From Methylobacterium nodulans ORS 2060 (GTDB taxonomy: Bacteria; Pseudomonadota; Alphaproteobacteria; Rhizobiales; Beijerinckiaceae): a stretch of 64,000 nucleotides of DNA. Below the pieces are notes generated by a model. That model was not told the DNA's origin, searched no databases, and saw only the letters and a list, made by a program, of their open reading frames with translations. The stretch spans positions 708,501 to 772,500 of the forward strand of contig NC_011894.1 of assembly GCF_000022085.1 (NCBI RefSeq), given 5' to 3'. Position 1 is the stretch's first letter. Every line of letters begins with the position of its first letter. Below are positions 41,530 to 54,332 of this stretch, one piece after another. The translations under genes and the position numbers were made by a program.

Positions 41530-41665
41530 AGCCGTGGTGTCATCCGCCCCGGTCGGTTCGGCCGGTAGTGAACTCGTGAAATCCGGTTGCTGGCGTCGCC
41601 ATGCGGATGTCGGCTTCGCTCAAGGGGGCGCGGTGAGACGGTCTCCGCCCCTTCGCGCACCCTCT
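41530..41665 (+). repeat. Left part of composite dispersed repeat, cut by the IS
   Basis: GCCATGCGGATGTCGG at about 41599-41614, preceded by TGAACTC and followed by GCTCA and a GGTCTCCGCCCCTTC segment, matches the reverse complement of about 61380-61475 (GCCATGCGGATGTCGG, GCTCA, GGTTCTCTGCCCTTC). In the other copy this part is directly joined to the 168-bp palindrome; here the IS110 element separates the two. Confidence 0.75.
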
Positions 41666-41699
41666 TGCATGTTTGACGGGCCGACCAGCGCACCAAGCT

Positions 41700-41875
41700 G
41701 TGAGGTGCGTCGCGGCCGGTGGCCACCGGCCGCGACGCGGGCGGCCGGGATCGATCTCCCTCTAGGATTGGCACCGTGGGAAAGCAGGATCCGGCCGCCC
41801 TCTGGCTCTTGTCCTGAACAGATGCTGGGGAGCAAGTCCCGTATGCAAGGCAAGGAAGTGTCCAAACAAGAGACC
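41700..41875 (+). ncRNA. Candidate IS110 bridge RNA with target and donor guide loops
   Basis: A 32-bp perfect palindrome (41707-41738) gives the 5' stem-loop. A 9-bp stem GGCGGCCGG/CCGGCCGCC (41740-41748, 41791-41799) encloses a target loop: CCCTCT (41758-41763) equals left target plus core (41660-41665), and GGGAAAGC (41778-41785) is complementary to GCTTTCCC at the right junction (42838-42845). A 7-bp stem CTCTTGT/ACAAGAG (41806-41812, 41866-41872) encloses a donor loop: ACAGATGCT (41818-41826) equals the right element end plus core (42832-42840), and ATGCAAG (41843-41849) is complementary to core plus left end CTTGCAT (41664-41670). A GGGA/TCCC hairpin tops the donor loop. The layout follows the bridge RNA known for IS621; pairing was done by eye. 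Confidence 0.78.
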
Positions 41876-42823
41876 GCGGGCAAGTCTAGCGTGGGGATCG
41901 ACGTCAGCAAGAGCTGGCTCGACGTCCACGTCCTCCCCTCCGGCCAAGCCCAGCGGTTCGCCAATACCGAGGTCGGCATCCGGCAGCTCAAGCGCTGGCT
42001 TGGGCGCTTTGCTCTGGGGCTGGTCGTGGTCGAGGCCACCGGCAAGTGGCACCGCCAGACCCGCCGCAGCCTGCATGCCTCGGGCCTGCCGGTCGCCGTC
42101 GTCGATCCGTTTCGGGTGCGCATGTTCGCCAAGGCGCAAGGCATCTGGGCCAAGACCGATCGGCTCGATGCCCGCGTGCTGGCGCAGTTTGCCGCGGTGA
42201 TGGCCCCCCCGCAGCGCCCGCCGGCCTCGGACGCGCTCGAAGCGCTCCAGGAACTGGTCGCGGCCCGCGACAGCGCCGTGGCCGAACAAACCGCCCTCAA
42301 GAACCAGCTGGCCGCGGCCGCAAGCCCGTTCCTGATCCGCCAGCTCCAGGACCGTCTGGCCAGGATCGCCGCGGACATCGAGGCCCTTGCCGGCGAGATC
42401 CGCCGGCTCATCGCGGCCGATCCCGGACTGGCCCGGCGGCATGCCATCCTGGTCTCGATCCCCTCGATCGGGGACACGATCGCGGCCACCCTGGTGGCCA
42501 GCCTGGCCGAGCTGGGCACCTGCAGCAGCCGGCAGATCGGCCTGCTGGCGGGCCTGGCGCCGGTCGCCGACGATTCCGGCGCGCGCCAGGGCGTGCGGGT
42601 CATCTGGGGCGGCCGCCCGCCCGTGCGCCGCGTCCTCTACCTCGCGGCGCTCTCGGCCGCCCGCCACAACGCCGGCCTGAAAGCCTTCCACGAACGCCTG
42701 ATCGCCAACGGCAAGAAGCCAAAGTGCGCCATCATCGCCGTGGCCCGCAAGCTCGCCGTGCTGGCCAACAGCCTCATCGCTCAGGACCGCCTCTGGACGC
42801 CAAATCAGCCCCAACAGGCTTGA
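41843..42823 (+). CDS. IS110-family transposase/bridge recombinase
   Basis: 326 residues. The N-terminal RuvC-like DEDD domain shows D20 (VGIDVSKSWLDV), E64 (VVVEATGKWH) and D106/D109 (KTDRLDARVL). A coiled-coil region follows (about 125-190), then the C-terminal Tnp domain with the catalytic serine S245 in VADDSGARQG and the RPPVRRVLYLAAL segment. All catalytic residues are present and the frame is intact, so it may be active. ATG 41843 has GGGGAG ten bases before it; this start lies inside the predicted donor guide, so transcription of RNA and protein overlap. An alternative GTG is at 41858. Confidence 0.93.
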   Translation: MQGKEVSKQETAGKSSVGIDVSKSWLDVHVLPSGQAQRFANTEVGIRQLKRWLGRFALGLVVVEATGKWHRQTRRSLHASGLPVAVVDPFRVRMFAKAQGIWAKTDRLDARVLAQFAAVMAPPQRPPASDALEALQELVAARDSAVAEQTALKNQLAAAASPFLIRQLQDRLARIAADIEALAGEIRRLIAADPGLARRHAILVSIPSIGDTIAATLVASLAELGTCSSRQIGLLAGLAPVADDSGARQGVRVIWGGRPPVRRVLYLAALSAARHNAGLKAFHERLIANGKKPKCAIIAVARKLAVLANSLIAQDRLWTPNQPQQA

Positions 42824-42838
42824 CGCCAAACACAGATG

Positions 42839-43005
42839 CTTTCCCGGACGTCTGCAGCGGCAGCGGAAGGAGATCCGGGACCAGCACGAGGGCGTGCCGC
42901 GAAGCGGCTCCGCATGCCAGCACTGTCGCTGAAAGCGGTCGCTGCGCGACGTCTTCTGCTGGGTCCCGGGTCGCGTTCCGCTGACGCTGCATGCGCCCGG
43001 GAAAG
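42839..43005 (+). repeat. 167-bp palindromic repeat core (copy 1)
   Basis: Begins CTTTCCCGGACGTCTGCAG and ends CCGGGAAAG, with imperfect inverted ends. It aligns end to end with the reverse complement of 61189-61356: both contain GCGGAAGGAGATCCGGGAC, TGCCGCGAAGCGGCTCCG and GTCCCGGGTCGC in the same order. The IS110 element is inserted exactly at its left end. The following 43006-43090 (to CCTCAGCAT) also corresponds to the flank of the second copy; the rest of the gap to 43181 is unassigned. Confidence 0.85.
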
Positions 43006-43181
43006 CGGACATCGTCGCGTGGGCTGACGCAGTCTCAATCGACCCTGAGACGCGTGGAAGCGGCCGCGCTCCTCAGCATACGGGGCCGGTGACAGGGTGC
43101 GGAAGCGCTCAGTCAGCCGGTTTCATCGGTCAGGGCCGGCATCCCCTCTCCGCACGAAAGAGAGGATGACCGCCCCCCGCT

Positions 43182-53876: not shown

Positions 53877-53989
53877 CGGCGGTCGCTTACCCGGTGCCGC
53901 ATCCATCGGCGCATCGAGGGAGGAAAGTGGAGGCTTCTGTTGCCAGGTGCCTCCGAACCCCGCCTATGCGATGCTAACCGCTAGGACTT

Positions 53990-54250
53990 TGATTGGTTTT
54001 GGGGACCGCTTACGCGGCCACCGCCACCGGAGCATAGTTGTCGTTGGCAACTATTGCATTGGCCCGATAACGGCGGAACCATGCCGAGCGAAAGTCCAAC
54101 CTTTACGCCCTCGTCGATCCTATTTCGCCCCCGCCGAAGCCCAACCCGCCTCATGCCGGCTGGGCTTGGGTGGAGGCGCCGGGTACCGCCCCCGGGTCCG
54201 ATAGGTTTATTGCGAAGAACGTTTATCGCCATAGCCGACCTCGCGGCCGG
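53990..54250 (-). ncRNA. ssrA: Two-piece (circularly permuted) tmRNA
   Basis: The tag frame at 54048-54010 reads ANDNYAPVAVAA and stop, an alphaproteobacterial ssrA tag. The acceptor strand GGGGGCG (minus, 54132-54126) pairs with CGCCTCC (54178-54172) located upstream in the transcript, so the order is acceptor piece, then a short intervening hairpin (54133-54170, AAGCCCA/TGGGCTT), then coding piece. The T-arm CCCGGGGGCGGTACCCGG precedes the acceptor 3' strand. GGATCGACG follows the coding-piece 5' end as in other tmRNAs. CCA is not encoded. The outer ends are approximate. It rescues stalled ribosomes and marks peptides for ClpXP. Confidence 0.93.
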
Positions 54251-54257
54251 CCCACCG

Positions 54258-54286
54258 AATATAGAGGCACGCGCGCCGGTTTTGAA
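54258..54286 (-). promoter_or_regulatory. ssrA promoter
   Basis: On the minus strand TTCAAA (54286-54281), 17-bp spacer, TATATT (54263-54258). Predicted transcription start is about 54251, just upstream of the tmRNA acceptor piece. Confidence 0.7.
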
Positions 54287-54332
54287 GCCCATCGATCGCC
54301 CTTCCCTGCCTCCTGTGGCCGATCCGCCGCCG

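Follow-up and report, generated by a model that had tools for sequence, protein, structure and literature searches.

The window, a stretch of 64,000 nucleotides of the Methylobacterium nodulans ORS 2060 genome (NC_011894.1, positions 708,501 to 772,500 of the forward strand), very probably carries an intact IS110-group insertion sequence of the bridge-RNA type at 41666-42838. Comparison with related elements supports a compact variant of this type, in which the guide RNA overlaps the coding sequence and the right donor guide doubles as the start codon of the recombinase. The first-pass annotation had recognized an IS110 element with readable bridge-RNA guides, and this is supported by the ends, the copies, the covariation of guides with flanks and the protein domains. 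It had missed that the right donor guide coincides with the recombinase start codon and that the predicted bridge RNA overlaps the gene. The comparison supports the ends, the core, the copies, the uninterrupted sites, the covariation of guides with flanks and with the element end, the conserved fold and the overlap with the reading frame.

Table 1. Features of the element and its surroundings (positions in the window; strand in the third column; a dot marks no strand)
Feature	Position	Strand	Basis or remark
IS110-group element	41666..42838	+	1173 bp between two CT cores; 15 same-end copies, homologous uninterrupted repeats
Left target flank CACCCT	41658..41663	+	consensus of 15 copies is CTCCCT
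Left core CT	41664..41665	+	copies, uninterrupted repeats
Predicted -10 box CATGTT	41668..41673	+	in the circular form; 3/6 consensus bases; 17-bp spacing from TTGACN in 9/9 types with both ends
Bridge-RNA covariance-model match	41673..41889	+	198 bits; the model's alignment includes this element
5' hairpin, perfect 16+16 palindrome	41707..41738	+	palindrome search, fold; pairs co-vary across relatives
Target-binding stem-loop (predicted)	41739..41800	+	outer stem 41739-41748 with 41791-41800; fold and compensatory changes
Left target guide CTCCCTCT	41756..41763	+	equals left target plus core; own-versus-other test
Right target guide GGGAAAG	41778..41784	+	complement of CTTTCCC; own-versus-other test
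Donor-binding stem-loop (predicted)	41806..41872	+	outer stem CTCTTGT 41806-41812 with ACAAGAG 41866-41872; 3' arm within coding sequence
Left donor guide ACAGATGCT	41818..41826	+	equals right end plus core; CT unconserved in relatives
Inner donor hairpin GGGA/TCCC	41827..41842	+	contains GGGGAG 10 nt before ATG
Right donor guide ATGCAAG	41843..41849	+	complement of core plus left end (CTTGCAT); also start codon and most of codons 2-3
Recombinase gene	41843..42823	+	326 aa (P0001); DEDD_Tnp_IS110 plus Transposase_20
Predicted -35 box TTGACG	42820..42825	+	overlaps stop codon TGA 42821-42823
Right end ACACAGATG (left donor)	42830..42838	+	
Right part of interrupted host palindromic repeat	42838..43006	.	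palindrome and genome alignments
Right core CT	42839..42840	+	copies, uninterrupted repeats
Right target flank TTCCCGG	42841..42847	+	15/15 copies

The element, its copies and the insertion site

Using Pfam, we found a DEDD RuvC-like domain (PF01548, E 1e-22) and a Transposase_20 domain (PF02371, E 3.3e-16) in the recombinase. Residues D20, E64, D106 and D109 are invariant across 23 recombinase relatives, and S245, conserved in at least 90% of the 23 sequences, is by alignment the putative catalytic serine. Among solved structures, the best sequence match is the ISCro4 recombinase (9t56, E 5.8e-38); the IS621 recombinase matches at E 2.2e-35. The non-coding left end is 177 nt long compared with 15 nt for the right end, and a search for repeats of at least 12 nt found no inverted repeat joining the two ends. 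The two domains, a left end far longer than the right, the lack of long terminal inverted repeats and scarless insertion at CT are the features by which the element belongs to the IS110 group. The IS1111 group was considered and rejected: its defining features are a long right end that holds the RNA and sub-terminal inverted repeats 7-17 bp in length, and here the right end has 15 nt and no end-to-end repeat of at least 12 nt is present. An Rfam gathering scan of the window returned tmRNA and tRNA only, with a bridge-RNA family absent. The tmRNA hit is an alphaproteobacterial tmRNA gene at 53926-54290 on the minus strand, which the permuted tmRNA model also matches.

The genome carries 15 full, near-identical copies of the element, and their ends are identical in all 15. 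The right flank is CT-TTCCCGG in every copy. On the left, CTCCCT-CT is exact in 12 of the 15 and CCCT-CT is present in 13; the deviating flanks are CACCCT (L001), CTCCCG (L011) and TGACCT (L004). The frame is intact in 12 copies, and three (L003, L008 and L009) have a one-base insertion or deletion. These three copies would suit a reading in which the element is decayed or non-mobile and its guide matches are historical. We consider this unlikely, since the 326-residue frame in the window is intact, as the first-pass annotation had supposed, and identical to that of 8 further perfect-score or near-perfect copies. In addition, only five columns vary among the 15 copies, a sign of recent spread.

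The first-pass annotation correctly took the element to interrupt a repeat. Forty places in the genome, own included, align with the right part of this host repeat (40 of 164 candidates scored), and intact repeats span the junction. When the flanks are joined via one CT, they align without interruption with a repeat elsewhere (L019, with CCCG-CT there) and, over a shorter stretch, with L016, which has the same ACCCTCTTTCCCGGA. Homologous repeats that run on in this way agree with a scarless insertion at a single CT. The element sits at the foot of a palindromic host repeat, whose 45-nt arms are 84% complementary. The repeat measures about 170 bp and has at least 40 copies in this genome. The 15-base pattern CTCCCTCTTTCCCGG has 5 exact occurrences in the genome and 95 with at most 2 mismatches, compared with 27 for the pattern reversed.

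Guides, fold and covariation

All four guide segments lie where the first-pass annotation had placed them. CCCTCT at 41758 extends to CTCCCTCT at 41756, and the others start at 41778 (GGGAAAG), 41818 (ACAGATGCT) and 41843 (ATGCAAG). The 32-bp palindromic hairpin reported there proved to be an exact 16+16 palindrome. The 7-bp stem closing the donor loop was found again, and the stem closing the target loop, given as 9 bp, has 10 bp by sequence reading. The left donor guide had been described as the right element end plus core. Its ACAGATG part stands; the CT part is unconserved, being found in 2 of 15 clade elements (this element and G584), and the match of the core part may be incidental. The ACAGAT of this guide is near constant, being kept in 20 of 20 elements examined.

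We generated 20,000 dinucleotide-preserving shuffles of the left end. CCCTCT followed by GGGAAAG within 40 nt was found 11 times, ACAGATG followed by ATGCAAG within 40 nt 3 times, and all four segments in order in none of the shuffles. CCCTCT is present twice in the 200-nt left end. The single-sequence fold is mildly better than that of shuffled sequences (z -2.18, with 5 of 200 shuffles equally good). An alignment of 12 left ends gave a shared fold with the 5' hairpin, the target-loop stem and the inner donor hairpin, and 23 of its 37 predicted pairs have at least one compensatory change. With a cutoff of E 1, the covariance model built from those left ends matched 36 of 50 additional loci, some with weak scores, and one of the 36 (L138) is not upstream of its gene. 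The model found no match in the IS621 RNA.

The covariation of guides with flanks was determined in relatives that share the left-end RNA, collected by genome and plasmid searches. Guides came from 14 element types by a pattern rule written after inspection of the loci, flanks were taken where present, and own guides were compared with others by 200,000 permutations with p values that ignore kinship. Own guides matched the left target at 4.69 of 6 positions compared with 2.52 for the guides of others (14 types, p 5e-6, kinship ignored), and the right target at 4.60 of 5 compared with 2.57 (9 types, p 2.5e-5, kinship ignored). For both flanks together, the values were 9.26 of 11 and 4.64 (9 types, p ~1e-5, kinship ignored). 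Among 14 left targets, the own guide was the best or joint best in 12, without a tie in 8, the misses being Rleg and L150. It was best or tied for 9 of 9 right targets. Only 4 of these were untied, as one right guide is common to G363, Rleg and L185, and both L095 and L178 score level with G584. For the combined flanks the own guide was best in 8 of 9 cases, the miss being Rleg. The target guides thus covary with the flanks among relatives.

The multi-copy relatives illustrate this. G584 has the guide GGGAGAG and CTCTCCC in 8 of 8 copies, and G363 has the guide GGATGAG and CTCATCC in 7 of 8, the remaining copy having CTCGTCC. The left targets of G584 read GCCACC in 4 of 8 copies, compared with TTCACC in the guide. 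In the copies fetched after the rule had been fixed (three of G584, one of G363), the right sides agree in 4 of 4 and the left sides vary. Overall, right targets are near constant (this genome 15/15, G584 8/8, G363 7/8) and left targets variable, as if the right guide were stricter.

Several loci were left out of the test: L098, whose contig ends 4 nt into the right flank and which has an extra T at the left end; L176, the same sequence as L096; L191, a near-duplicate of L184; and L139, L085, L189 and L190, which are truncated or lack a usable left end. A right end of L144 reads CT-CTCC, in agreement with its guide GGAGAG, and was likewise kept out. The left end of L096, and likewise of L176, is tandemly duplicated (two copies of CTTGCATATTGGATAGGC), some 170-210 bases upstream of where the recombinase begins (2501). 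L096 therefore has two candidate left ends; we used the outer one (left target CCGGCCAT), and the inner one, GGATAGGC, would fit the guide badly. L185 and L187 (Rhizobium plasmids NZ_CP071635.1 and NZ_CP016290.1) are two distinct clade elements in one neighbourhood, with a cold-shock gene on one side and a site-specific integrase on the other. Their flanks are similar on both sides, with the left flanks just before ~1430. They have the right target guide GGGATGAG in common and different left guides, and this looks like two independent insertions into one site. In L190 (Rhizobium sp. NZLR1 plasmid p2), the stretch at ~1459-1563 is a remnant with the left end and donor loop, without the target loop and gene.

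A plasmid search with the whole element gave one 47-nt match only, a viral scan gave 34 stretches, none of them a relative, and a class-wide protein search of 384 other genomes gave no relative at E up to 1e-75. The closest protein in the genus (110 other genomes) is 43% identical. The covariance model matched 4 of 298 family genomes and 10 of 397 order genomes, own included in both. The model searches added G335, G428 (L223, whose left target is shifted by one base), small fragments in G666, and the more distant G554, G576, G577 and G750, all of which were kept out of the own-versus-other test. G335 has two decayed copies, in which the clade's ATGCAAGG is replaced by AGGCAAGG and AGGCATGG. 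By eye, among the loci added by these searches, L226 matches its left guide and L225 does not.

The donor loop can be compared with the element end in the same way. Clade members combine the right donor guide ATGCAAG with the end CT-TGCAT, except that the end of L178 is CT-TGTAT and needs one G-T pair. A sister group of five loci (four uncultured Rhodobacteraceae and one Citreicella) has the right donor guide ATAAAAG in three loci, or ATAAGAG or ATGAGAG, and the ends CT-TTTAT (three) and CT-CTTAT (two); the guide ATGAGAG needs one G-T pair with its end. That guide and end are changed together in the five loci supports covariation of the right donor guide with the element end.

It could be argued that the recombinase protein itself, and not an RNA, recognizes the palindromic repeat, and that the guides match by chance or as leftovers of the left end. 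According to PMC1525189, REP-targeting IS elements also occur in families not known for such RNAs, and the single-sequence fold is only mildly better than shuffles. We regard this explanation as hardly credible, since the four ordered matches never arose in the 20,000 shuffles, and the guides covary both with the flanks (14 types) and, in the sister group, with the element end.

Probable overlap of the guide RNA and the recombinase gene

An in-frame ATG is present at the right donor guide in 15 of 15 clade elements examined; the two decayed G335 copies are without it. In nine of the 15, no ATG, GTG or TTG occurs between the guide ATG and the conserved GID motif. With no later start codon in these nine, translation would begin in the donor loop or upstream. 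An alternative in-frame ATG at codon -7 (41822), inside the left donor guide, is found in 12 of the 15. Codon 2 is CAA in 13 of 13 elements, and elsewhere in those frames glutamine is encoded by 46 CAA and 80 CAG. The GGGGAG in the inner donor hairpin is a putative ribosome-binding site.

The stem closing the donor loop pairs into codons ~8-10. Own partners average -16.1 compared with -13.6 kcal/mol for cross pairings; with kinship ignored, p is 4e-4 over 17 elements and 1.3e-3 when the set is reduced to 13. The own partner took first place in only 2 of 17 elements, and the stem has no support from Aest (rank 16) or L178 (rank 10). The closing stem probably reaches to ~30 nt inside the gene. 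In the sister group, an in-frame ATG occurs three codons earlier, within the inner donor hairpin, and in more distant relatives, L104, L105 and L120 among them, the frame by reading of these loci appears to start after the guide.

Another explanation is that, as in IS621, the bridge RNA stops short of the recombinase gene, and that the guide ATG is unused or the overlap incidental. PMC11208158 gives the IS621 bridge RNA 177 nt, with G165 and the handshake bases G166-U167. In the IS621 sequence (L192), 12 nt separate the ATG from the core-pairing G of the guide, and by arithmetic from this numbering that is exactly where the RNA ends. The codon -7 ATG that 12 of the 15 clade elements have would also suit such a reading. 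However, an RNA that stopped before 41843 would be without its right donor guide. In nine of the 15 elements no later start precedes GID, and codon 0 and codon -7 both lie within the predicted bridge RNA. We therefore judge this explanation very unlikely and favour the overlap of guide RNA and gene.

It is possible, although we hold it with less than even confidence, that the bridge RNA and the recombinase mRNA are one molecule with two mutually exclusive uses, that the RNA-bound recombinase shuts off its own synthesis, and that the start codon locks the element end. As the inner donor hairpin would hold the ribosome-binding sequence and the guide the start codon, a transcript folded and bound as bridge RNA would be untranslatable. 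Since the end must pair with ATG-CAA-G, changing the end would change the first codons of the protein, as in the sister group.

Known systems, the proposed cycle and its meaning

The element resembles IS621 of Escherichia coli, also of the IS110 group, in its recombinase domains, the CT core, and a left-end bridge RNA with a 5' hairpin followed by the target and then the donor loop (PMC11208160, PMC11208158). The likeness extends to a circle-junction promoter, predicted in this element, and a REP-type target (PMC11208160, PMC11208158). The guides and the target of IS621 differ from those found here. The right donor guide pairs contiguously (7/7) here, whereas in IS621 two bases are flipped out of pairing (PMC11208158). 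The start codon lies within the right donor guide here, whereas in IS621 it appears to follow the RNA end. The seekRNA of ISEc21 is similar in that the upstream non-coding region is required and two guide segments serve the two target strands (PMC11187229). ISEc21 uses a linear site in IS3-family genes, in contrast to the palindromic repeat here, and its relative ISMch6 is a case of natural redirection (PMC11187229). A 2006 report described IS110 elements inserted into REP sequences, and ISRm19, ISPpu9, ISPpu10 and ISPa11 are by description likewise inserted in host palindromic repeats (PMC1525189). ISPa11 differs in belonging to the IS1111 family, with the RNA downstream (PMC11187229). In ISPpu9, translation is limited by 5' mRNA structure and an antisense RNA (PMC8450116). 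In the open-licence literature searched, no paper combined IS110, bRNA and "start codon", and no title or abstract opening described the overlap. Within the limits of this search, the start codon as donor guide is the new part, and the mechanism and layout are already known from IS621 and ISEc21.

When the right and left ends are joined in silico, all 9 types with both ends show TTGACN, 17 bp and [CT]AT[AG]TT. The -10 box is CATGTT in 7 types (3/6 consensus bases), CATATT in Aest (4/6) and TATATT in L178 (5/6). RNA production, promoter activity, a circle, catalysis and the translation start are inferred. The recombinase and the bridge RNA would cut out the element as a circle closed at a single CT. 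The circle junction would create a promoter, with the -35 box in the right end over the stop codon and the -10 box in the left end, and the junction transcript would carry the bridge RNA. The target loop would pair with CTCCCT-CT-TTCCC where the palindromic host repeat has its foot (target sequence CTCCCTCTTTCCC), the donor loop would pair with the circle junction ACAGATG-CT-TGCAT, and insertion would take place at the CT. In the clade, the 3' half of the donor loop would be formed by the first ~ten recombinase codons, with the right donor guide as the start codon.

The 14 element types, three of them with at least 7 copies, form a natural set of guides and targets that supports bridge-RNA targeting in Alphaproteobacteria from sequence alone. 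In the proposed layout, the guide, the start codon and the element end would constrain one another, and ~30 nt would serve both the guide RNA and the gene. This layout makes testable how one short transcript may be divided between guide RNA and messenger.
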